A stretch of 64,000 nt of DNA from Dokdonia pacifica (lineage in GTDB: Bacteria; Bacteroidota; Bacteroidia; Flavobacteriales; Flavobacteriaceae), in contig NZ_FZNY01000011.1 of assembly GCF_900188275.1 (NCBI RefSeq), positions 62,001 through 126,000 on the forward strand, written 5' to 3'. A program made the position numbers and the translations under genes. Shown piece after piece: positions 867-15,089 of this stretch; position 1 is the stretch's first letter; each line of letters starts with the position of its first letter. The notes below the pieces were generated by a model. The model worked only from the letters and a program-made list of their open reading frames with translations, was not told the origin of the DNA and made no database searches.

Positions 867-3800
867 ATAAAATAATACTATTTATTCTATGCGTTTTTAG
901 CATATCTACACAAGCAACATCTCGTAATACGCTTAGCTCCTCTTTTACAGGGATTGTAGCAGATTTACGTTACATGGATGTATCGGTAACCCCCGGTTCA
1001 AATCAAATAAATGCTACAAATGGGCACTTATTTACAGCTGCAGATATTGGAAAATTAATAGCTATTAAAAAAGGACATCATAATCCTAGTACGACTGCCG
1101 AGATTCCTTTTACAACTCCTGGACGTATTGTCACAGTAACCGCTCAAATAATAAGTGTATCTACAGATGGAACATCTGCAAGTATTAATGGTATTGCTCC
1201 TAATCAAGACATAGATACAAGAGCATATGTATACACTAATAATTATGATGCATTACAAACCCTTATAACAAATGGCGGAGACATCACACTGAATCAAAAC
1301 GGAATTATAGGAGTAAATCCTTTTTATCACGATGACTACACAGAGGTGACCAATAAGGGCTTACTATTTCCAGATAATCAGTCTGTAACTATCAGAAACA
1401 CAAACAATGCACGTATTAAACTATGCTCTGAGACGATAGACTGGGAGTATACATTTGCCCTATTTGCGAGTCAAGTAAGCAATCATGATATAAAAGTAGA
1501 GGTCTCTTGTATTCCACCAGATGAAGCGACAACGCGATGGGGAGGACAATGTTCATTTTTTACAACAACCTTACTCTCAGGAAATGGCGCTGGAAACTCC
1601 GTACGAACTATTGAGTTAAAAAACACAACACCTTTAGCTGGGGATATCGATACAGGTACAGATCCTTTCTGGAATTTTTATTTTAACGGATTGCTTGGTG
1701 GTATTGAAGGCACTTCTAATTACCAAGAAATCTTTATTCTTAATGACGATCCAAATGCAGAGATTAGAACTAAAAATGGAGGTATTTATCAATTTGGAGG
1801 AGGCTCTCAAATTACGATCACAAATCTTAAAGTAAACTATAGTGGACATTATGTAGGTGAAAATGGAAGAAGTTTTACTTCTGAAAGTATCTATACTGAA
1901 GCTGATGGAGGACGCTGGCAGTTTGACAACTTTAAAATTGAAGCTGGGGTTCTAAAACCTAATCATCCTAGTACAGATTTTTCTTGGTACGATTATGTAG
2001 CTCCTTCTCGAACAATGGGTGTGAGTATAGATGGTACTACTTTCTATCAGTTTAATTTAGACCCAGCCACCATGGCTACTATCCTAAATGGACATGATTT
2101 AGACATATCCAACACACCACTTGCAAATACAGCAAATGCAACGATTACTATTCAATTTCATGATGATGACCCTAACTTGAATCTTTCTTCAAATCAAGTA
2201 AAAACATTTGGTCACCCAAATTATGTGCATCCAGATGTCGCATTTAGAATCACAAATATTACCAGTGAGTACGGACACTGGAGATATTACGCAACTGGAA
2301 ATCAATATTTAATAGACGCAAATAATCCTAGTCTAGGAGAAGTGGACTCTACTATTACACCTGCTTTTTCTGAAATTTACAATTCTAACATTCAAGGTAC
2401 TGGATTACAATTTCAAAACTTCGGATCAAGTAATAATAATCAAGAGGTTGCTAATGCTACACGAGGAACTTTAAAGATTGTGAACAGCGATGTAAAAGCG
2501 CGATTAATTTTTGGAGCATTAGAACTAACAGATACCGAAATAGATGGTGAGTATATCTACGTAAACAGTTTAGTAAGCCATGGCGGAAACCGTCTTGAAT
2601 TTCAAGTCGTAGATGTCTTTAATTCTGATTTTATTAGTACCAATGACCACTATGACGGAAACTTAATTCGTTTTTTAAAGGATGATGTTTTAGTTCAATT
2701 TAACAACACAACATTTGGAACAAATTATGGAGGTGAGCATTTATTCCCTTATGTCCCTAATGGAACTTTACATTATCTAAATAATGCAGAGAACACCAAT
2801 CGTCTTCCTAGGTTTGATAATAGCATTAATGAAACTTACTCTAATGAATTTACGGAAGAAAGCACTGTTATTTTTGAAGATTGTGAGTTTGCTCACGTAG
2901 ATGGTACTTCTCTTTTTTCTAGAAGCTTTAATAATGGAGTATTAAGAGATGGTGCAAAGGTAGAATTTAGAAATTTCAAATTCAGAAATGCTATAGGTTT
3001 AGGTAAACTTATTCGTCCATACTTTGCTCCTGATCATAAAAATAATGGAATGGCAGACATTCCAACAGGTGATGAACTAGCCGTTTATAAACTTAATAAA
3101 ACAGGTGGTTTACCATATGCATTTGATGGATCAGATATTAATGCTATTGGAGCTAGAGTCTCATTCTCTAATCAGCATACCTTAGCAAATAAGGTTGCAA
3201 GCATTATTGTTCCAACATTTACAATTAATGATTTTGGACATCTATTCTATACTACAGACTGGGCAAATGGTGCTTATGTAGATGGAGAATTTACGATTCG
3301 CGTTACAGATGATCTTGTTCGATTTAACCCATATTATACTAATGGGAATACAAATAATAAAAGATCAAATACGACACTTTCAAATTTAGTATTAAACACC
3401 TCTGGAAAAAGAAAAAATGGAGAAGTAATTAGCTTTAAAGTAGACCCTAAACAAAATAGAGTTATAGAAATAAATGCTACTTTAGATGGGAATCCAATAG
3501 ATAAATACTATGTAGATGCTGACCCTACGGGCACACCTGGACTTGATGGAGAGATCGTATATTTGGAAGGTGATGATACTACTTTTTGGACACATGAAGT
3601 CTCACATAATAATATTTCAGGCACTTCATATTCTGTTTCACCTGAATTAGTTGATGGTCATACAGAACTTGAAACCAATATTTACTTTTCTATAAAACAA
3701 GAGTTACGTTCAGAAACGCCATGGGAAGATTTTGAATTCACGTTAACCGATGATACTGGAACTATACATACGTTTGTAAATTCATCTACTAGCTTTTTTA

Positions 3801-5779: not shown

Positions 5780-7849
5780 ATGATTTTACTAAAAGATAAA
5801 ATAAAAATAAGTGTCTTCATACTTATGATGATGAGCTTTTTAGGGTATACTCAACAAGAGAATACTGTAAAAAGGTATTATGTGAAATTTGCCTCTGAAG
5901 ACGTAGCACCGAAATTCGTAAAAGAAGGTGAAAAATTTACATATATAGGAGATGATAAAGAAGAGGAAGCTTTTTTTGCCAAATATGATATCCATAATTT
6001 TGAGCAAGTCTATCCTACCTCTAGAAGAATTAATCTAAGAAATGCATTCTTTTTAGAAACATCTTCACAAGATTTAGTGAGCGAACTTATGAAAGCATAT
6101 CCCACTAAATATAGAGTTATAGAAGATCTTACTGATGAAAAAATGGAACTAAACAATAATCCTTACTTCCCTAATGACTATGTAGTAAGTCCTGTACGTA
6201 TACCATTTGATCTAAGTACTTTTGATCGTAAGGAACTAGAGTATATTGGTGCTCCTAAAGCATGGGGAATTACAAATTCATTAAACAACACAATTACAAT
6301 TGGATTATCTGATGCCAAAGTAGACGATCAAGATCCAGATTTAGCAGGAAAAGTATCTTTCTTACCCAATGGTTATAGTTATGGAAATCTTACTCCCGAT
6401 TGCGATAATGGGTTTTCTACCCATGGTACAGGTGTAGGAGCAATAGCCGCTGCACAAGGAGACAATGGATATGGAACAGTGGGTGTATGCTATGATTGTG
6501 ATATACTAGCTGCCAATGCATTTTCGTACGGACATCTCTTGACTTTGGCACAAAGTGGTGTCAAGGTAATTAATATGAGTTGGGGAGGCACTTCATCTTT
6601 ACCACCAGATCAATATATTCAGAGCTCCCAACACCGTCAAGACATACAAGAATCTATAAATGAAATTGTTGAAGATTATGGAGTAGTTCTAGTAGCCTCA
6701 GGAGGTAATAATCTTAACTTTAATGCAAACGGTTATTTCCCTTTATACAACTATCCCGCTTCTTTTGATAATGTGATATCTGTAAGTGGCGTAAATCACT
6801 GGTATGATATGGATAATCCGCATGAGGTAACCGCAATCCCAGGAACCACAAATCAATCATATTTATGGCGTATTGAAGATTCTGTGTCACAATTAGTACT
6901 TGATGATGGTATTAACGAACCTCAAGGTGTGTATACTAATTATTGGAATCCAAATGGAAGTGGCATATTAACATTAAATGACCAAATTGATATTTTAGCG
7001 CCTGGATACCAAGTGCATTTGTATGCTACTCATATATACAATTGCCCAGTAGATCATAATAATGATGGACAACTTAATTATCTTCTTGAAGGTAAATATG
7101 GAAACGCAACATCTCCAGCTGCTCCCTATGTAACAGGAACCGTTGCTCTCATGTTTATGGTTAATGAGTGTTTGACTCCTAAGGAAGTGGAAAACATCCT
7201 AAAACTTACTGCTAAAGATATAGAAAACACACATCTTAATGCTCCATTTTATGGACTCATAGGTTCAGGAAAGTTAGAAACAGGAAACGCTGTTGAGTTT
7301 GTAGATGAAATGCAAAAGTATGATGGACTAGCCGTTATTAAAAACCATAGATTTCATCGTTATGATTTTAATCTTGACAAATTCAACAATGATCTTCTTA
7401 TAGAGAATGTTCAATTTGAAGAAAATACTACTGTAGATTTTACAGCAAGAAATAGTATTGAGCTTACAGAGGGGACATCTTTAAAACCAGGAGCCAATGG
7501 GTATGTCATTTTAAATACAGATACAACTATTAATGACATCTGTGTCCCATCTAATGTTTCAACTAGTGCTTCCTCTTCTGAAACCTCTAGAAATACATCG
7601 TCTGAACTTGAAAGTGAACTAATTCTATATCCAAATCCAACTCGAGATATAGTACAGTTACAATTAGTAAGTCAAAATGATAAAATAGCTTCTGTTGAGA
7701 TTTATAATATCCATGGTCATCTAATTTCTGAAGTAACTGCTTTAGAAAATAATAGTTTGAATATCTCGGCCTTTAAAAAGGGAATATACCTCATTAAAGT
7801 ACATACCGTAAACAAGAACTCTTTTACTGAAAAAGTAATCAAAATGTAA
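5780..7849 (+). CDS. Secreted S8 (subtilisin-like) peptidase with T9SS sorting domain
   Basis: 689 aa. A hydrophobic signal segment (about residues 8-22) is followed by a region compatible with an S8 propeptide. The catalytic triad can be read as Asp178 (GLSDAKVD), His215 (STHGTGVG) and Ser445 (NATSPAAP); the Asn at GGNN (about 309-311) fits the oxyanion position. The Asp and Ser boxes differ from the classic DTG and GTSMAAP. The end (LYPNPTRDIVQLQL ... ISAFKKGIYLIKV) is a T9SS type A sorting domain. It probably acts as a surface or extracellular endopeptidase, possibly with its secreted neighbours as partners. It starts 37 bp after the fibre-like gene. Confidence 0.88.
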   Translation: MILLKDKIKISVFILMMMSFLGYTQQENTVKRYYVKFASEDVAPKFVKEGEKFTYIGDDKEEEAFFAKYDIHNFEQVYPTSRRINLRNAFFLETSSQDLVSELMKAYPTKYRVIEDLTDEKMELNNNPYFPNDYVVSPVRIPFDLSTFDRKELEYIGAPKAWGITNSLNNTITIGLSDAKVDDQDPDLAGKVSFLPNGYSYGNLTPDCDNGFSTHGTGVGAIAAAQGDNGYGTVGVCYDCDILAANAFSYGHLLTLAQSGVKVINMSWGGTSSLPPDQYIQSSQHRQDIQESINEIVEDYGVVLVASGGNNLNFNANGYFPLYNYPASFDNVISVSGVNHWYDMDNPHEVTAIPGTTNQSYLWRIEDSVSQLVLDDGINEPQGVYTNYWNPNGSGILTLNDQIDILAPGYQVHLYATHIYNCPVDHNNDGQLNYLLEGKYGNATSPAAPYVTGTVALMFMVNECLTPKEVENILKLTAKDIENTHLNAPFYGLIGSGKLETGNAVEFVDEMQKYDGLAVIKNHRFHRYDFNLDKFNNDLLIENVQFEENTTVDFTARNSIELTEGTSLKPGANGYVILNTDTTINDICVPSNVSTSASSSETSRNTSSELESELILYPNPTRDIVQLQLVSQNDKIASVEIYNIHGHLISEVTALENNSLNISAFKKGIYLIKVHTVNKNSFTEKVIKM

Positions 7850-7909: not shown

Positions 7910-7929
7910 TACGCTTTCGCGAAAGCGTA
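7910..7929. repeat. Palindromic repeat, copy 2 (intergenic)
   Basis: Perfect TACGCTTTCGCGAAAGCGTA with one extra base pair on each side (7909-7930). It lies 60 bp after the subtilase gene and lacks the T run expected of a terminator. Confidence 0.95.
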
Positions 7930-8032
7930 TACATCTTCATTTTAAACGTTTGACAGCTCTTCTATATCAGAAAGCTACAGGACGAACGATGCTTTATCTC
8001 ATCGATCTAAATAATATTTTCTCGCGAAGAAT

Positions 8033-8067
8033 AGACATACTCTGTGAGTGTCTCTAAATGTTCACAG
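8033..8067 (+). promoter_or_regulatory. Predicted H-type pseudoknot leader element A
   Basis: Two interleaved stems can form. AGACA (8033-8037) pairs with TGTCT (8049-8053), and CTGTGA (8042-8047) pairs with TCACAG (8062-8067). The same order and exactly the same spacings (4, 1 and 8 nt) occur at 12866-12900 and 13638-13672. A small TTCT/AGAA hairpin just upstream has a counterpart near 12853. It ends 27 nt before the start of a double-glycine peptide. A cis-acting RNA is inferred; overlapping DNA operator dyads are the alternative. Confidence 0.6.
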
Positions 8068-8094
8068 TAATTCTAATTTTATAAATACTTAATT

Positions 8095-8283
8095 ATGTTA
8101 AAAAACATTTCAAATTTAGGAAATACACTTAGTCAAGAACAACTAAAAGAAACTTTGGGAGGCATGCAAGGTTTTGGAAAAGTAATTTGCGTTGCTCCGT
8201 ATTTAATTGCAGCTGGTGAAACATGTGCTCAAGGATATCACCCACACCCAACCATGGGACATTGCGTTTGTTGTAGAGATTAA
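8095..8283 (+). CDS. Double-glycine leader, Cys-rich secreted peptide 1
   Basis: 62 aa. The leader MLKNISNLGNTLSQEQLKET ends in LGG (residues 21-23), the pattern of bacteriocin or natural-product precursors cut after Gly-Gly by peptidase-domain (C39) ABC exporters. The predicted core of 39 aa holds five Cys, three of them in a CVCC end, plus a His/Pro-rich YHPHP stretch. No modifying enzyme or C39 exporter is in the window. It has its own leader element and a terminator follows, so it is probably monocistronic. Function may be toxin, signal or RiPP; none is proven by sequence. Confidence 0.8.
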   Translation: MLKNISNLGNTLSQEQLKETLGGMQGFGKVICVAPYLIAAGETCAQGYHPHPTMGHCVCCRD

Positions 8284-8290
8284 TCACTCT

Positions 8291-8330
8291 AAACTAAGGG
8301 AATTCTAAAAAAAGTATTCCCTTAGTTTCT
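8291..8330 (+). terminator. Rho-independent-type terminator after peptide 1
   Basis: A 13-bp perfect stem joins AAACTAAGGGAAT (8291-8303) and ATTCCCTTAGTTT (8316-8328), with a short T-rich stretch in the 3' arm and tail. It begins 8 nt after the peptide stop. Confidence 0.7.
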
Positions 8331-8428
8331 ATATCACTTAGAATACCTAATTACCATCTCAAAACAATACTCTTCTACAGAATTCTCTTAATTCTCATCA
8401 ATTAAAAACACATACAAAACATAATATT

Positions 8429-9025
8429 ATGAAACATATAATCAAACTTATTGTCACTTCTATTTTAGCTATTCTATTTTTTACGGCTTGCTCACCAGAA
8501 ACTGAAACTGAAGTATTTGAACTAGGAGAAACGACAACAGATCAAACTCTAAACAGAAGAGGCACTACGACTGGGCATGTTAATTTTTGTTATACAGAAA
8601 CAACGCCCGTAACACCTGCAGAAATCATAGTATGTCCAGATGTTTTTTCTTTGGCTGATATTACTGTAAATGTACCTTATAGTGATGATACGAATGATGT
8701 TGTTGATGAATTGAAAAGTGTTTTTTTCTGTAATGATGAGTTTAGTACATGTACGGGAGCCCCACAACCTGTAGAAGTATGCTCAGTGACTTTTAGTATT
8801 GAAGATAGTCCTAATTTTTTCGGAACGTATGAATACTTGTCTGATGACATTACTCCAGCAATATCCAATCAAATAAAGCAATACTTTGCTTGTGTGGCTA
8901 AAGATTATGGAGATACAAACTATTCAGAGTATCAAATAGCGCATGTAACCTTTTATCAAGATCAGCTTTTATGTAATAACTGTACTAGATTTCTTGTAGC
9001 TCAGGTAAGTTACTATGTCTACTAA
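8429..9025 (+). CDS. Cys-rich lipoprotein of unknown function
   Basis: 198 aa. The N-terminus MKHIIKLIVTSILAILFFTACS has a lipobox with the lipidated Cys at residue 21. No Lys occurs at +2, so it should move to the outer membrane. The mature part has nine Cys (for example CNDEFSTC, CNNC), an unusual number for a flavobacterial lipoprotein, and many acidic residues early on. No known domain was recognised. It lies 22 bp before the T9SS metalloprotease gene and is probably co-transcribed with it. It may be a partner or inhibitor of that protein; this is inference from position only. Confidence 0.75.
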   Translation: MKHIIKLIVTSILAILFFTACSPETETEVFELGETTTDQTLNRRGTTTGHVNFCYTETTPVTPAEIIVCPDVFSLADITVNVPYSDDTNDVVDELKSVFFCNDEFSTCTGAPQPVEVCSVTFSIEDSPNFFGTYEYLSDDITPAISNQIKQYFACVAKDYGDTNYSEYQIAHVTFYQDQLLCNNCTRFLVAQVSYYVY

Positions 9026-9046
9026 AAAATTATAAAACAACTAATT

Positions 9047-12000
9047 ATGAAAAGAGCATCTACATTACTTTTTTTCTGTTTGTTTATTTTGGGAAACACA
9101 TTCGCTCAAACAAATAGTCACACCCATACCTGTAAAGAGTTTACATATAAAAGACAGCCTTACTTACATTGTCAAAACTCGTCACATTATAATGAGAATA
9201 AAGATCATAGTAAAGAAATGTCTGTTATGGACCGTTTTGGAAATTATTATTGTACTGAAATTCTTAATGCCAAAGATAATATCACAACTCAAAGAAGAGT
9301 TTCGTCTGGAGGGCATTTTAATACTTTTTATGACAACACTCCTAGTTCCTTTAGATTAATTATAGATCAGGTTTTTGAAGACCTCGAACAACTATTGGTC
9401 TTTCAAAAAAATTGTGATGGTAATTTTCCTCAAGTAAATTTTAGAATTAAAGTGGTAGATTTTTCAGATGAAGGCACGATTGCAATAGAAGATCAACCAT
9501 TAGCAACTGGTACAGCTTTATATCCTGGCAGTACACGAAGAGGTACTATTATTAGAGGAGATGTATGGAATAAAATAAATTTAGGAACAACATACAACAC
9601 AAGTACTTCCGATGACGGTATCATTCAAATAAATCAAAATTTACTAAATAATTTTTATGTAGATCATTTTGTAGAAGATCTAAATAATGATGGGATCATG
9701 GATGTAGATGGAACTAATCTATCTGGAGAGCTATATGATCTTTATGGTATTATCCAGCATGAAATACTACATGCCATGGGATTTATCTCATTTTTAGATC
9801 AGAATGGTAATGGAACTACCTCTAGTAATTTTATATCACCATTTGACACTTTACTTTATAATAATACGACTCCCTTTATAGATACTTCTACTCCGTATGA
9901 CTGGGATATTTCAGCTGGAATTAACCCTAGTGTAGCATTCCAAGATCCATGTCCTACAAATACAATTCAAACAACAAGTCATACATTTCCGTTACACAGT
10001 ATGGATAGTGATGGTAATTTTGTACAACCATCACACATAAATGACACCAACAATTGTACAAATGGTGTAAGTTATATCATGTCTCCTTCTTATTCACATC
10101 TAGAATATAAACGATTACATCATGACGAGGTAAGTATACTTAATGAATTAGGATATCAAACAACAACAACCTATGGATCTGAATTCTTAATTACTGACAA
10201 TGCAACAATAAACCCAAACAGGGATATTAACTTTCCTGCAAGTACTATCAATATGGCTTATGCAATAGATGATCCTTGTCTAGAGGATAGTTACTTTACA
10301 TTTAATGAATGTGAAGGTCCTTCTTATGAAATAGATATTATACAAAATGATATCATTACTTCTAATTATAGCATTGTAAATACTGAGGTAATTAATCTAT
10401 TAAAACCTGGTCATATTACGATAGCAGATAATGTTCAGATGGAAGTACAGAATAACACAAATAGTATTACAATAAATTATACAGATCAAATGCTACTTGG
10501 AAGGGAATATAAGATACGTTATCAGCTTGTAGAAAATACGACGGGTAGATTAAGTAATCCAGCCTTAGTCACATTTAAAATACTTCCTTGCTCAGATCAT
10601 TTGGTGAATTTTAATTGTACTCCGGAAAGCACAGATTTCAATTTAATATGTAATTCTGAATTCATTACTGATTATGAATTACCATCGCATCCTCTAGTTT
10701 TCAATAATACTTTTTCAAGTGGTATAAGAGTTCCTTATGATTTCATGCCTGGATGGTATCCAGTAAATCATAATGCTAGATACTTTTTTGACATCTATAC
10801 TCTTGCAGATGTAGTCGCTCACATTCCTGCTATTACTGATGATATCGTTAACAATAATGGTGTTTTTGCTTTAGAAGGAACAAAAGGGGTAATGACAAAA
10901 TTAACTTCTAATTTACAACCTGATAAACGTTACATAGTAAGTCATTTTAGTAAAGGACTGGATGAAGATAATGAAGCAAAAAGAAGATATCGCATTGGTT
11001 TTTTTGAAGATATAGATCAAGACACCTATTATCCAGATGCTCCTCCTCAAGAAAATTCTCCAAGTTATCTAGCACAGTCAGTAACAAATTTCACCTCAAC
11101 TTCCGATCAAATTTCGCAACATGTATATTCGTTTGTTGCTGATCAAGAATATGAAGGTACTTTTGTTTCTGCAAGAAACTCTGGTTTTATTTTATTTGAT
11201 CACTTAGAACTTATTGAAGATACTATTGAAGATATAGAAACAGAAGTTGAAGTAGATTGTTCTCTCAATGAATTAACCACTATTGGCACCAATTTATACA
11301 CCGTTAGAGGTATGAACTTCTCTTGGTGGCTAGCGGGAGAAGATGGCGTTTTTTATACAAATGATGATATTCAACTTACATCAAATGATACTGACCTAAT
11401 TACTTCAGATACTATCTCACCAATAGGTAATGGTTCTGAATTAACAATCGGCACTATTACCTCCACAGAAACATATCAGTTACGACGTACTATGGGTGAG
11501 ACAACTGGATTACATTATACAGAAGCTAATGGGCTTATAGACACCATAACATTACCTCCTGCAAGCACCAATAACTTTATTGATAACATAAATGTACAGG
11601 TCTCTTGCATCGAAATTTGCGAAGTAGATGTGTATGGTAATTTTGACTCAGCAGATGTTACCTATGCCGATGGTGACCTATGTACTGCCTTTCCTTTTGG
11701 ACACTTCAATCCTGCTTGGAACACTCCCTTCCCTTGGAAAGCAACTATCTATTATGCAGCCTATCATGTATTACTAACAGAAGACTTTTATGATGACTAT
11801 AACTGTGACATATTAGTAAACCAAGGCACTAATACAAATCTATGGATGAAACCACATCGCATAAAAACACCACCCTCTGGACATGAAAGTGTGATGGCAT
11901 ATTGGAATAATTCTAAGCATACAGATCCTAACTTCTCTGGTGTCTATACACAAATAGAAAACTTAGAACCCAATACAACGTATCAAATAGAATTTTATGA

Positions 12001-12565
12001 TTTACCATTGCGTACACATGCCCCTGGTAGACAAACAGCAAATTTATACTACAAAACCAAAGTCTCTTTTGATGGTCAAGAATGGGATGGACCTGATACG
12101 TATTATACCAATGAAGATAATTACTGGCATCAAAGAACGATGACCTTCACAACAGGACCAACAACAACAGCTACAACCTTAACATTACAATTTCCATTAT
12201 ATCCAGACCTAAACAATCCTGTTAATGATGGTTACATCGCTATAGATGATATAAAAATTACTTGTGTAGATACTGCTAATGTAGGTGAAAACGATACAAA
12301 CATTCCATCTAGATATGAAAACACGGATGAGAATCAAGTATTCATATATCCTAACCCTACAAAAGAAGATCTATTTATAGAATTACTAGACCAAAAACAG
12401 GAAATAAAAACTATAGAAATATTTAATACCCATGGGCATCTTGTATGGAAAGATGAAGGAAACTTAAATACCATTACGATTTCCAAACTCAAAAAGGGAA
12501 TATACTTTATTAAAATCTTAACAAGTGATAATACTTATATCACTGAAAAAATTATAAAACAATAA
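9047..12565 (+). CDS. T9SS-exported zinc metalloprotease-like protein
   Basis: 1172 aa with a signal peptide (MKRASTLLFFCLFILGNTFA). A zincin motif HEILHAMGF lies at residues 238-246 (His238, Glu239, His242), preceded by GELYDLYGI; this resembles secreted metzincin or leishmanolysin-like enzymes of Bacteroidota. The third zinc ligand was not assigned. Middle regions look like beta-sandwich repeats. Residues about 859-1172 are the module also found in the protein at 863-4981, ending in a T9SS type A sorting domain (FIYPNPTKEDLF). It should be an extracellular or surface peptidase. A strong terminator follows. Confidence 0.85.
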   Translation: MKRASTLLFFCLFILGNTFAQTNSHTHTCKEFTYKRQPYLHCQNSSHYNENKDHSKEMSVMDRFGNYYCTEILNAKDNITTQRRVSSGGHFNTFYDNTPSSFRLIIDQVFEDLEQLLVFQKNCDGNFPQVNFRIKVVDFSDEGTIAIEDQPLATGTALYPGSTRRGTIIRGDVWNKINLGTTYNTSTSDDGIIQINQNLLNNFYVDHFVEDLNNDGIMDVDGTNLSGELYDLYGIIQHEILHAMGFISFLDQNGNGTTSSNFISPFDTLLYNNTTPFIDTSTPYDWDISAGINPSVAFQDPCPTNTIQTTSHTFPLHSMDSDGNFVQPSHINDTNNCTNGVSYIMSPSYSHLEYKRLHHDEVSILNELGYQTTTTYGSEFLITDNATINPNRDINFPASTINMAYAIDDPCLEDSYFTFNECEGPSYEIDIIQNDIITSNYSIVNTEVINLLKPGHITIADNVQMEVQNNTNSITINYTDQMLLGREYKIRYQLVENTTGRLSNPALVTFKILPCSDHLVNFNCTPESTDFNLICNSEFITDYELPSHPLVFNNTFSSGIRVPYDFMPGWYPVNHNARYFFDIYTLADVVAHIPAITDDIVNNNGVFALEGTKGVMTKLTSNLQPDKRYIVSHFSKGLDEDNEAKRRYRIGFFEDIDQDTYYPDAPPQENSPSYLAQSVTNFTSTSDQISQHVYSFVADQEYEGTFVSARNSGFILFDHLELIEDTIEDIETEVEVDCSLNELTTIGTNLYTVRGMNFSWWLAGEDGVFYTNDDIQLTSNDTDLITSDTISPIGNGSELTIGTITSTETYQLRRTMGETTGLHYTEANGLIDTITLPPASTNNFIDNINVQVSCIEICEVDVYGNFDSADVTYADGDLCTAFPFGHFNPAWNTPFPWKATIYYAAYHVLLTEDFYDDYNCDILVNQGTNTNLWMKPHRIKTPPSGHESVMAYWNNSKHTDPNFSGVYTQIENLEPNTTYQIEFYDLPLRTHAPGRQTANLYYKTKVSFDGQEWDGPDTYYTNEDNYWHQRTMTFTTGPTTTATTLTLQFPLYPDLNNPVNDGYIAIDDIKITCVDTANVGENDTNIPSRYENTDENQVFIYPNPTKEDLFIELLDQKQEIKTIEIFNTHGHLVWKDEGNLNTITISKLKKGIYFIKILTSDNTYITEKIIKQ
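11622..12565 (+). repeat. 944-bp direct repeat, copy 2
   Basis: Near-identical partner of 4038-4981 with no indels by eye. The two host genes are otherwise unrelated, so the module was moved or kept uniform by recombination. Confidence 0.93.
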
Positions 12566-12630
12566 AAGAAATACTCTTAATTCATTGATGAGCGTATCTA
12601 TAAACATGCGCTTTCAAATCATTTTAAAAT

Positions 12631-12669
12631 AATGCCATCAACATACTATTGATGGCATTATTTTTTTTG
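12631..12669 (+). terminator. Strong intrinsic terminator
   Basis: Perfect 11-bp stem AATGCCATCAA (12631-12641) with TTGATGGCATT (12649-12659), a 7-nt loop and a run of nine T. It ends the 9047 transcript. Confidence 0.92.
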
Positions 12670-12774
12670 AAACAAGCCGTTTTATTATCCTATTTTTTTA
12701 TGGTTTTATTACCAATACGTTAAATCTTGGCGTTTTTTAGTGTTAAAATTCAGATTATCAATAATTTAAATACA

Positions 12775-12852
12775 TTTTTAAGTATTTTTAAGTAAAAACC
12801 CAACCCCAATAACAATCTGACTATCAAATTACTAAAAAAATACTTAAAAATA
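12775..12852. promoter_or_regulatory. Decanucleotide direct and inverted repeats upstream of the peptide cluster
   Basis: TTTTTAAGTA occurs twice in tandem (12775-12784, 12785-12794) and once inverted at 12841-12850. The arms TATTTTTAAGTA and TACTTAAAAATA pair over 12 bp. It lies just 5' of leader element B in the 366-bp gap between the metalloprotease and peptide genes. It may be an operator or an AT-rich hairpin; no counterpart was found before the other two leader elements. Confidence 0.4.
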
Positions 12853-12865
12853 TTCTTGCAAGGAT

Positions 12866-12900
12866 AGACATATGCCTTGAGTGTCTTTAATGGATCAAGG
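12866..12900 (+). promoter_or_regulatory. Predicted H-type pseudoknot leader element B
   Basis: AGACA (12866-12870) pairs with TGTCT (12882-12886); CCTTGA (12875-12880) pairs with TCAAGG (12895-12900). Relative to element A, two base pairs of the second stem change on both strands, and all spacings are equal. It ends 31 nt before the peptide 2 start. Upstream, TTCTTGCAAGGA can form a small hairpin like the one in A. Confidence 0.6.
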
Positions 12901-12931
12901 TTATCATTAAAATTCAAAATTTATTTTAACC

Positions 12932-13114
12932 ATGAAAAAATTAGTAAAACTAGGAACGCAACTAAATGTAGAGCAACAAAAATCTATTAACGGAGGATCA
13001 ATAGGATGTAACATCTTCCTTTGTACACCAGAAAGTGAAGGGTGCCCATGCTATAATAACCCAAACAGTCCAGATGGAAGAGGATGTTGTATGGACGGAA
13101 TGTGTACTGATTAA
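12932..13114 (+). CDS. Double-glycine leader, Cys-rich secreted peptide 2
   Basis: 60 aa. The leader MKKLVKLGTQLNVEQQKSINGG (22 aa) fits the LGxxLxxEQQKxIxGG pattern of flavobacterial precursors. The 38-aa core has seven Cys (CN, LC, GCPC, GCC, MC) separated by Pro, Gly and Asn, which suggests a disulfide- or thioether-rich fold. It is probably the first gene of a peptide operon with 13202 and 13405, because those two lack their own leader element. Export by a C39-type ABC transporter encoded elsewhere is inferred. Confidence 0.8.
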   Translation: MKKLVKLGTQLNVEQQKSINGGSIGCNIFLCTPESEGCPCYNNPNSPDGRGCCMDGMCTD

Positions 13115-13201
13115 TCACCCCTATACAAATGAAAATATAGCTTATAAATGATACTTATGTATTGTTTACGCTTAAAAACATTAATCTTAAAAAAGAATCT
13201 T

Positions 13202-13393
13202 ATGTTAAAAAACATTTTAAAAGCAAATGGAGTTAAAGAGTTAAATAAAGCTGAACAACAATCAGTAACTGGGGGTATGATTACTACCTGTACTTCTGAT
13301 TCAGATTGTCAAATTCCAGGTAATCCATTTTGTATATATGCATGTATTATCAACTTTGGAGTTTGTGTATATGACACAAGAAGTTGTGCTTAA
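13202..13393 (+). CDS. Double-glycine leader, Cys-rich secreted peptide 3
   Basis: 63 aa from the ATG at 13202. A longer frame exists from 13148, but its extra 18 residues are not leader-like, and all sister peptides begin with MLKN or MLKK. The 25-aa leader ends in VTGG. The 38-aa core has six Cys and begins with CTSDSDC, a spacing common in knottin-like folds. The gene lies 87 bp after peptide 2 and 11 bp before peptide 4. Six Cys fit three disulfides, but this is not shown by the sequence. Confidence 0.78.
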   Translation: MLKNILKANGVKELNKAEQQSVTGGMITTCTSDSDCQIPGNPFCIYACIINFGVCVYDTRSCA

Positions 13394-13404
13394 TAGGTAG
13401 AAAG

Positions 13405-13572
13405 ATGCTTAAAAACATAAAAAAAGTAGGAGAAGTACTAACGGCTTCTACACAAAAAAGTATCACAGGAGGTAATGCCTGTATAGCCTGTTATGACCAT
13501 TGTGTTCTTGTTTCTAGAAATAGAATTGAGTTAGGAGATTGTTTTGACAACTGTCAACAAACAGTATGCTAA
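13405..13572 (+). CDS. Double-glycine leader, Cys-rich secreted peptide 4
   Basis: 55 aa from the ATG at 13405, chosen over an in-frame start at 13384 that overlaps peptide 3 and adds seven unrelated residues. The 23-aa leader MLKNIKKVGEVLTASTQKSI ends in TGG. The 32-aa core carries six Cys in CxxC-like pairs (CIAC, then YDHC, GDC, DNC and a terminal C). It is tightly coupled to peptide 3. Confidence 0.78.
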   Translation: MLKNIKKVGEVLTASTQKSITGGNACIACYDHCVLVSRNRIELGDCFDNCQQTVC

Positions 13573-13637
13573 CACCCATCATAAGAACACCTATTTAACA
13601 CATATAGAATACTCGTCTATATCATTAGTTAAAATAC

Positions 13638-13672
13638 AGACACACACTATGAATGTCTATAAATATTCATAA
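13638..13672 (+). promoter_or_regulatory. Predicted H-type pseudoknot leader element C
   Basis: AGACA (13638-13642) pairs with TGTCT (13654-13658). TATGAA (13648-13653) pairs with TTCATA (13666-13671), within the same frame of spacings as A and B. The outermost pair of stem 2 is lost (C.A) but an inner A-T pair is gained. It lies 24 nt before peptide 5, which therefore has its own leader. Confidence 0.55.
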
Positions 13673-13696: not shown

Positions 13697-13900
13697 ATGC
13701 TTAAGAAAATTTCAAATTTACAAGGAGTTCAAAAACTAAACAGTAAAGAACAAAAAGAAGTTAAAGGAGGAAAAGATGCTGTAAGATGTCCTGTTTACAC
13801 TCCAGCAGAATGTACAAACTGTGGAGGCTTTCCTGTTTTTAATGGATGTTGCTTAGGAACTCAAGAAGTACACGAATGCCTTACTGGATTCGGTAATTAA
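13697..13900 (+). CDS. Double-glycine leader, Cys-rich secreted peptide 5
   Basis: 67 aa. The 25-aa leader MLKKISNLQGVQKLNSKEQK ends in EVKGG and aligns with that of peptide 3 (two-residue insert relative to 1, 2 and 4). The 42-aa core has six Cys (RC, ECTNC, GCC, EC). A convergent terminator follows. It belongs to the same precursor family as the four preceding peptides; its function is unknown. Confidence 0.8.
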   Translation: MLKKISNLQGVQKLNSKEQKEVKGGKDAVRCPVYTPAECTNCGGFPVFNGCCLGTQEVHECLTGFGN

Positions 13901-13988: not shown

Positions 13989-15089
13989 TTAACTCTTTAC
14001 ATCTAAAGCATCTCTTAGCGCATTTCCTACCAACATAAAAGCCATAACTAATAACATAATCGCTACCCCAGGAATAACAGCCAGATATGGTTTTCCTAAA
14101 ATAATATAGCTATAATGATCTTTAATCATTGCTCCCCAACTAGGCATAGGAGGTTGCGCCCCAATACCTAAAAAACTAAGACCACTCTCTATCAGAATAG
14201 CACCCGCAAAATTAGCCGCAGATATTACAATAAGAGGTGCCATGATATTAGGTAATATATGTCTTATAATAATACGCCCATGCGTATACCCAAGCGCTTT
14301 TGCAGCTGTAACATATTGCATTTGCTTAACACCCATTACCTGCCCTCTTACTACACGAGCTACCTCAACCCACATAGTGAGTCCAACCGCTATAAATACT
14401 TGCCAAAACCCTTTCCCTAAGGCCAATGTAATTGCAATAACTAATAATAAAGTAGGAATAGACCACGTCACATTAATAATCCACATAATAGCAGCATCTA
14501 CTTTCCCTCCAAAATACCCTGATAATGCTCCCATAAACACCCCTATAAGAAGTGAAATAAAAACAGCTACAAATCCTATAGAAAAAGAAATACGCGCCCC
14601 CACAAACATTCTACTTAATAAGTCTCTTCCGTATTTATCGGTGCCTAGTAAAAATTTTTGTGAGGCGATATGCGCTTTCGCGAAAGCGTATACATCTACC
14701 CCTTCTTCCATTTGCAAGCGTTTAGAAATCCCTTCTATATCATCTCCTACATACGGTGTATAAATAATCGCGTCATTTTCTATCGTATAGGATGTGATAG
14801 GGATTTCTGTATCATTATTTTGCTTTCCAAAAAATAGAGAAGACACGTTAAAGGAAGTCTCCTCTACCGCTGAAGGAATAGTAAGCATCGAAACTGTAAA
14901 TCCTGGTCCTCTTGAATGTATAGAAAGATGCATCTGATTTGCATTTTGACTATTATCAGGTGCAAATACATAGGCAAATAATGCAATGATCCCACAAAGT
15001 ACAATGTAGCATAAACTCAAAACGCCCCAAAAGTTTTTCTTAAACTTTTGGAGCGCTAAGCTTGTAAGTGAATTTGCGGTTTGCGACAT
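13989..15089 (-). CDS. ABC transporter permease, oligopeptide/dipeptide (OppC/DppC) type
   Basis: 366 aa. One N-terminal membrane segment (about 22-44) is followed by a roughly 100-residue periplasmic loop and then the binding-protein-dependent permease domain (about 150-360). The signature LLGTDKYGRDLLSRM and the EAA loop (VTAAKALGYTHGRIIIRHILP) identify an OppC-type permease, which moves peptides or nickel with OppB and ATPases that are not in this window. The periplasmic loop contains a palindromic repeat read as VYAFAKAH (residues 133-140). It starts 3 bp after the stop of the tail-specific protease gene, so they form an operon. A peptide substrate is likely, not shown. Confidence 0.9.
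   Translation of the reverse strand: MSQTANSLTSLALQKFKKNFWGVLSLCYIVLCGIIALFAYVFAPDNSQNANQMHLSIHSRGPGFTVSMLTIPSAVEETSFNVSSLFFGKQNNDTEIPITSYTIENDAIIYTPYVGDDIEGISKRLQMEEGVDVYAFAKAHIASQKFLLGTDKYGRDLLSRMFVGARISFSIGFVAVFISLLIGVFMGALSGYFGGKVDAAIMWIINVTWSIPTLLLVIAITLALGKGFWQVFIAVGLTMWVEVARVVRGQVMGVKQMQYVTAAKALGYTHGRIIIRHILPNIMAPLIVISAANFAGAILIESGLSFLGIGAQPPMPSWGAMIKDHYSYIILGKPYLAVIPGVAIMLLVMAFMLVGNALRDALDVKS
14671..14690. repeat. Palindromic repeat, copy 3 (in permease gene)
   Basis: TGCGCTTTCGCGAAAGCGTA: exact 14-bp core and one mismatch to the 20-bp consensus. It falls in the periplasmic loop of the permease, where an insertion is tolerable. Confidence 0.92.

Follow-up and report, generated by a model that had tools for sequence, protein, structure and literature searches.

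In the operator of phage T4 gene 32, a small RNA pseudoknot followed by an A/U-rich start region nucleates protein binding over that unstructured region (PMC535899). Class I preQ1 aptamers, about 35 nt long, are simple H-type pseudoknots whose loop 3 is A-rich (PMC11625349). STAXI is mainly a repeated pseudoknot, and Flavo-1 occurs in Bacteroidetes (Weinberg 2010; PMC2864571). Here we describe an element that resembles these in some respects. It occurs three times in a stretch of 64,000 nt, hereafter the window, from Dokdonia pacifica (Flavobacteriaceae; assembly GCF_900188275.1, contig NZ_FZNY01000011.1, forward-strand positions 62,001-126,000), each time before a gene for a peptide with a double-glycine leader.

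As in the T4 operator, the pseudoknot is followed by a start region that may be called unstructured, here judged by its A/U-richness. On the other hand, the T4 operator serves one phage gene, whose own single-strand-binding protein is the repressor (gp32 autoregulation), and its unstructured part exceeds 40 nt and contains a Shine-Dalgarno site, whereas the flavobacterial spacer measures 23-31 nt and the element is common to many cellular genes. It differs from class I preQ1 in the sequences of its stems and loops and in leaving the ribosome-binding sequence unmasked. STAXI lies near genes of DNA-handling proteins, and Flavo-1 is listed as not cis-regulatory (PMC2864571). No Rfam family matched the element: Rfam 15 gave no window match at gathering score, and its models (preQ1, SAM-II and others) gave none at E up to 1 in four element loci (L003, L004, L040, L086). 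This agrees with a preliminary description of the same DNA, which knew of no named RNA family with such a layout. The literature searched, including PMC2864571, PMC6429828, PMC8632094, PMC11109978 and PMC6671954, holds no such element in its accessible parts, and an earlier unnamed listing in surveys or supplements is possible.

Predicted fold and paired changes in the stems

Judged from sequence, the fold is a canonical H-type pseudoknot with a stem 1 (S1) of 6 bp, a loop 1 (L1) of AAA, a stem 2 (S2) of 6 bp directly on stem 1, and a loop 3 (L3) of 8 nt, NUAAAUGW. The pattern AGACA-N11-TGTCT, formed by the outer five stem-1 pairs, has exactly three sites in the window (8033, 12866 and 13638), with 0.02 expected from dinucleotide shuffles; none of 100 such shuffles holds three or more. 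The preliminary description had claimed an identical layout at these sites, double-glycine peptide genes behind them and 24-31 nt from the end of the element to the ATG. All of this was borne out, including the leader open reading frames (ORFs) behind all three copies; the distance from the 3' arm of stem 2 to the ATG is 27, 31 and 24 nt for copies 1, 2 and 3. The features are listed below, together with two leader ORFs given for contrast (lengths in amino acids, aa).

8033-8067, plus strand: predicted pseudoknot copy 1 (S1 8033-8038/8048-8053, L1 8039-8041, S2 8042-8047/8062-8067, L3 8054-8061)
8068-8094, plus strand: A/U-rich spacer of 27 nt before the start codon, copy 1
8095-8283, plus strand: double-glycine leader peptide ORF, 62 aa, without Pfam or NCBIfam family
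12866-12900, plus strand: predicted pseudoknot copy 2 (S1 12866-12871/12881-12886, L1 12872-12874, S2 12875-12880/12895-12900, L3 12887-12894)
12901-12931, plus strand: A/U-rich spacer of 31 nt before the start codon, copy 2
12932-13114, plus strand: double-glycine leader peptide ORF, 60 aa, without Pfam or NCBIfam family
13638-13672, plus strand: predicted pseudoknot copy 3 (S1 13638-13643/13653-13658, L1 13644-13646, S2 13647-13652/13667-13672, L3 13659-13666)
13673-13696, plus strand: A/U-rich spacer of 24 nt before the start codon, copy 3
13697-13900, plus strand: double-glycine leader peptide ORF, 67 aa, without Pfam or NCBIfam family
13205-13393, plus strand: contrast, double-glycine leader peptide ORF with no upstream element (Pfam PF14406 below cut-off, E 0.054)
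13405-13572, plus strand: contrast, double-glycine leader peptide ORF close behind the preceding one, no element

Some details of the layout had to be revised. The stem-2 arms of copy 3, formerly given as TATGAA/TTCATA, were one base out; in the register common to all copies they read CTATGA/TCATAA, with five pairs and an outer C-A. The innermost stem-1 pair of this copy is C-A as well, and a one-base shift yields a sixth stem-2 pair. In the common register two positions of stem 2 still vary on both sides, as claimed (T-A/C-G/T-A and G-C/T-A/A-T), the second passing through three pairs. What had been described as a 1-nt gap between the stem-1 and stem-2 arms is instead the sixth stem-1 pair. 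Element positions 6 and 16 are U-G, U-G and C-A in the window copies, and among 211 relatives chosen by stem 2 only they are C-G in 104, U-G in 70, U-A in 22 and C-A in 2. Hence, no base separates the stems. Stem 1, formerly called constant, is so in its outer five pairs within the window and not among relatives, where paired changes occur.

The counts cover 296 distinct places and 218 distinct gapless 50-mers, most loci having been fetched via a model or pattern match; rows with indels were excluded from the pair, loop and sixth-pair counts and from the tree-based null. Two covariance models served for the stem counts, R1 with stem 1 as sole structure and thus blind to stem 2, and R2 with stem 2 as sole structure and blind to stem 1. 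Both stems pair with two-sided changes over the 218 gapless copies. In the ungapped copies of the host genome (alignment A2), 97.4% of 154 pairing cells are paired and five of the six stem-2 pairs show two-sided changes, the outer five stem-1 pairs being invariant. Among R1 matches (116 distinct of 127 rows), 94.6% of the stem-2 cells are paired and all six pairs change on both sides; independent drift of the stem-2 arms, named in the preliminary description as an observation that would refute it, was not seen with this stem-2-blind model. Among R2 matches in loci fetched by R1 (alignment A4; 111 distinct of 122 rows), 97.9% of the stem-1 cells are paired and four of six pairs change on both sides, the outer pair being A-U in 93, G-C in 11 and U-A in 3. 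Alignments A3 and A4 both contain the 14 training copies. In each alignment ten of the twelve stem pairs change on both sides, the covariation looked for in a structured cis-acting mRNA leader, and sliding the partner columns by 1-3 positions lowers pairing to 22.6%-56.3%.

A tree-based null of our own design (153 rows after thinning, 60 simulations, 1225 column pairs) ranks the two central stem-2 pairs first and second, and no null score is as high. Of the six stem-2 pairs, five rank among the best 12, and the outer stem-1 pair comes 16th; neighbouring columns of a palindrome 5' of the element (see below) rank high too. Loop bases are nearly invariant, with A in 99-100% at L1 position 19 and L3 positions 36 and 37. 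An AUG in loop 3 was considered as an upstream start and dropped, as these bases vary (AUG, CUG, UUG, ACG, AGG, AAG).

A sequence-free descriptor (stems, loop-length ranges and distance) was applied to 332 distinct leader-like ORFs in the fetched loci. A score of at least 12 is reached by 164 of them, which is no frequency estimate because many loci were fetched for holding the element, and by none of 300 stretches obtained by mononucleotide shuffling of 300 of the 332. The stem-1 variants found in this way include TGGCAT/ATGCCA, GGACCG/CGGTCC, GACTG/CAGTC and AGACTC/GAGTCT, with loop 3 still near UAAA.

Mismatch bias and the upstream flank

Mismatches in the stems bear on the possibility that AGACA-N11-TGTCT is a DNA operator, i.e. 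a transcription-factor dyad with stem 2 as a by-product. Palindromic spacing of 21 bp is common among operators and fits this pattern, an additional palindrome lies 5' of about half of the copies, and AraC-type regulators lie near some of them. However, stem 2, which crosses stem 1, shows two-sided changes, and its mismatches are biased. Across the 204 rows that have five stem-1 pairs (counts on the peptide strand, expectation by independence from column composition), the inner five pairs of stem 2 are biased as follows: A-C occurs 6 times versus 88 expected, an approximately 15-fold depletion, and G-U 80 times versus 155, which is about halved. In the innermost stem-1 pair A-C occurs twice versus 15 expected, and G-U 69 times versus 77. 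Because the pattern used on named genomes fixes AGACA/TGTCT and restricts the sixth stem-1 pair to Y and R, and because of the choice of loci, the test was repeated without pattern-picked loci. It gave 3 A-C versus 47 and 43 G-U versus 83 for the inner five stem-2 pairs, and 1 versus 9 and 35 versus 39 for the innermost stem-1 pair. The outer five stem-1 pairs (G-U 6, A-C 6) hold no strand information.

In a DNA dyad, G-T and A-C mismatches should be alike, which is not the case in stem 2 and the innermost stem-1 pair, where A-C is far more depleted. Tolerated G-U together with depleted A-C therefore indicates an RNA with the sense of the peptide gene, and the stem-2 bias speaks against a plain DNA operator, which we consider very improbable. 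An H-type RNA pseudoknot under selection on structure, as first proposed, is strongly supported by the two-sided changes in the stem-blind sets and by the A-C depletion. The RNA element itself appears nearly certain to us.

On the upstream side, conservation reaches back about 23 nt from stem 1 (119 rows). Directly 5' of stem 1 many copies carry a short palindrome of the type CTCGCGAG, TTCGCGAA or CTTGCAAG (window 8021-8032 and 12854-12865; L040, L069, L074). Its CGCG class comprises 119 of 228 rows and its TGCA class 16. As part of the RNA the palindrome was rejected, since it is absent from many copies and, within the CGCG class, A-C (66) is no less frequent than G-U (52); the lack of strand bias among its mismatches suggests a possible DNA site. 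Upstream, a hairpin whose 5' side carries an A-tract, and which resembles a terminator when read on the minus strand, was seen before 25 of 293 elements (for example L069 at about 3060-3095, L040, L044 and L054; in L069 the preceding gene is on the same strand), and the plus-type before 7 of 293. Control stretches gave 3 and 8 of 277, and shuffles 0-1.

Target genes, start regions and occurrence in genomes

ORFs were read behind 284 of the 296 places, 12 being omitted with a cut element or flank (full element plus 120 nt of flank needed). An ORF counted as leader-like if it had no more than 140 aa, G[GAS] or A[GS] between residues 15 and 34, and its ATG within 60 nt. Such an ORF follows on the same strand at 260 of the 284 places, at 243 with GG, and in 253 of these 260 the distance from stem 2 to the ATG is 23-31 nt. 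Constant sense and upstream place are as looked for in a structured cis-acting leader. The other 24 places include three leaders with variant motif (L085, L097, L100) and six non-leader exported proteins, namely the lipoproteins in L139, L159 (twice), L165 and L202 and a secreted protein in L123. Further targets, both assigned by eye, are a gene for an M56-type protease farther off (L081) and one for a TonB-type receptor (L181); the rest include broken or absent ORFs. Since six unrelated exported proteins carry the element, more than hitch-hiking with one gene family is involved. One element is common to many paralogous and a few unrelated genes of exported proteins.

The tight distance to the AUG bears on a further explanation, by which the knot would be a constitutive element of mRNA stability or processing, a protected 5' end left by RNase cleavage that lets the peptide message outlive that of the transporter genes. 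Elements in L069 lie between same-strand genes, directly behind the preceding gene; hairpins are often found upstream; and the housekeeping promoter TAnnTTTG shows no peak upstream of the element (293 rows), such that a promoter at a set upstream place was rejected. A protecting knot needs neither a tight AUG distance nor conserved loop bases, yet both are found. We consider this explanation unlikely.

A riboswitch-like aptamer, in which a small ligand would stabilise the knot and thereby change expression, seems to us quite unlikely as well. Size and topology resemble the class I preQ1 aptamers (PMC11625349), and the loop bases are nearly invariant. However, stem 2 does not cover the start region, an alternative structure or terminator did not turn up (no systematic search was made), and the targets are exported peptides rather than a single metabolic pathway. 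Linkage to queuosine genes, typical of preQ1, was not seen among the places read, where the neighbours other than leader-type ORFs are exported proteins, broken ORFs or unrelated genes.

The host genome (5.5 Mb) was scanned with the pattern and with covariance models. AGACA-N11-TGTCT occurs at 15 places (reversed control, 2), and at 14 of these the 3' arm of stem 2 shows no more than one mismatch and is followed by an ORF whose leader motif is GG, GA or AG, the exception being L012. R2 at E up to 1 marks 24 places; compared by hand, 21 precede a match to a leader profile, and the remaining three comprise one before a peptide with a different leader and two, in L113, that lack an intact ORF. 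A covariance-model search of flavobacterial genomes, as the preliminary description had proposed, showed that the element spreads far beyond the window, R1 matching 29 of 299 sampled Flavobacteriaceae genomes at E up to 0.01, with at least 19 matches in the richest. Among these 29, the match in G261 (L067) is apparently false, since the gene beside it is not one for a peptide. Model R3, built from alignment A4, matches at E up to 0.001 in 11 of 296 genomes of the order, one of these 11 (G369) outside the family, and in 9 of 395 genomes of the phylum, none of these 9 outside it; the number of genomes outside Flavobacteriaceae is not shown for these two samples, and the range limit is soft. Scans over more than 40 genomes give per-genome copy numbers that are lower bounds owing to stricter filters and to a maximum of about 15-20 scored candidates for each genome.

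The pattern scan of named genomes yielded at least 112 stretches with a match. Among the 80 loci listed, most come from Tenacibaculum, Aquimarina, Dokdonia, Winogradskyella, Polaribacter, Bizionia, Psychroserpens, Flavobacterium and other Flavobacteriaceae, and a few records are labelled Bacteroidales, Roseivirga or Tissierellales (putative labels of metagenome-assembled genomes). The Bacteroidales- and Roseivirga-labelled loci L156, L216 and L207 hold good elements and leader peptides; the Tissierellales-labelled L177 is a weak match (E 0.005) without leader peptide. An exact pattern match was not found in viral contigs, and carriage by viruses was rejected.

This distribution also bears on a recombination or cassette site that would move peptide genes and fold as single-stranded DNA. 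Sites of the attC type are recognised by structure, which gives a precedent, and tandem arrays of element and peptide gene exist (L113, L079). Nevertheless, the AUG distance is narrow, single copies are scattered through the genome, unrelated lipoprotein genes carry the element too, viral contigs show no exact match, and the mismatch bias is of RNA type. Such a site is extremely improbable.

The leader profile (A8) was built from 20 leaders and favours element-bearing genes, as every one of these leaders sits behind an element. It matches 24 of the 29 element-bearing and 24 of the 270 other family genomes (Fisher p 1.5e-17; genome lists compared by hand). Four of the five element-bearing exceptions have leaders of another subclass by eye (L042, L063, L064, L066).

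Start regions behind the element are rich in adenine, with A at -3 in 85%, at -11 in 79%, at -12 in 86% and at -13 in 64% (312-place set, in which some places are counted twice). In F. johnsoniae, initiation profits from adenines at -3, -6, -12 and -13, and the ribosomes of Bacteroidia initiate without Shine-Dalgarno pairing (PMC6847099, PMC9976891).

A possible role in translation initiation, and neighbouring genes

Based on fold, place and targets, the pseudoknot may be a cis-acting mRNA leader element that controls translation initiation of exported-peptide genes; we regard the chances for and against this as evenly balanced. The upstream boundary of an initiating 30S subunit lies at about -20. 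With its 3' end 23-31 nt before the AUG, the knot would stand just 5' of the expected footprint, and this placement suits regulation from beyond the ribosome footprint better than it suits masking of the start. The A/U-rich spacer, with A at -3 and about -12, resembles that of well-translated Flavobacterium genes. By analogy with the T4 gene 32 operator, a trans-acting factor, either a protein or the 30S platform itself, might recognise the knot and its conserved loops, and recognition would raise or block 30S loading on the spacer, which is taken as unstructured. As an outcome, the peptides of element-bearing genes would be made together.

Several findings weigh against this proposal or the evidence behind it. 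In the tree-based null only the two central stem-2 pairs are individually significant. Position -6 of the start regions is not A-rich (A 24%), and A-rich start regions are common throughout Bacteroidetes. Genome G179 has 21 leader matches and no element match, and in the host, 30 of the 51 leader-profile matches (E up to 2.2e-4) are without a model-detected element, 21 having one. Such peptides can therefore do without the element.

A bolder proposal, which we make tentatively and hold to be rather doubtful, is an unnamed class of regulatory RNA, of which up to about 20 copies per genome would bind a common factor or ligand and switch the translation of exported peptides together. This would be a competition or signalling regulon at the RNA level, in bacteria that initiate without Shine-Dalgarno pairing, and the factor or ligand might be linked with cell density, competition or the state of the envelope. 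If control of initiation is confirmed, an RNA-level regulon for exported peptides would be common to a sizeable minority of Flavobacteriaceae, the peptides being putative bacteriocins, lanthipeptides or signals. It would also offer a natural system to study how initiation depends on upstream RNA structure and on the 30S platform in ribosomes that hide their anti-Shine-Dalgarno tail. The motif also aids the discovery of small-peptide genes, since none of the three element-bearing window peptides has a Pfam or NCBIfam match.

Genes near the element include those for C39-peptidase ABC transporters, HlyD, VKOR-thioredoxin proteins, lanthipeptide enzymes and TPR-AraC regulators. In L111 (8714-10432), L112 (7627-9351) and L103 (10216-11916), element-bearing peptide genes adjoin genes for large TPR proteins whose C terminus carries an AraC-type helix-turn-helix (HTH) domain; these proteins are possible receptors or regulators. 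Gene sets that combine a sigma-70-like factor with a TPR protein and a CHAT protease lie near element-bearing peptide genes in L109 (5297-9150 and 12140-13500) and L106 (2672-7488), the protease being assigned by Pfam in L109 and by eye in L106. Genes for a lanthipeptide dehydratase (N and C parts) and a LanC-like protein are found near such peptide genes in L103 (3096-9490).

Intact or nearly intact elements stand before broken or missing ORFs in L047, L056, L088 (3768-3816) and L113 (4636-4684 and 4745-4794), as if peptide genes decayed before their elements. By eye, element-free leader-peptide genes in L268, L276, L285 and L291 seem to have a different A/T-rich pattern in common upstream, whose core is TGATTATCA-like. 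In the window, the peptide genes are flanked by a subtilase (5780-7849) and a metalloprotease-like protein (9047-12565), each of which carries a type IX secretion tail. A long palindrome around CGCTTTCGCGAAAGCG has two window copies, at 7910-7929 and about 14671-14690, distant from the elements.

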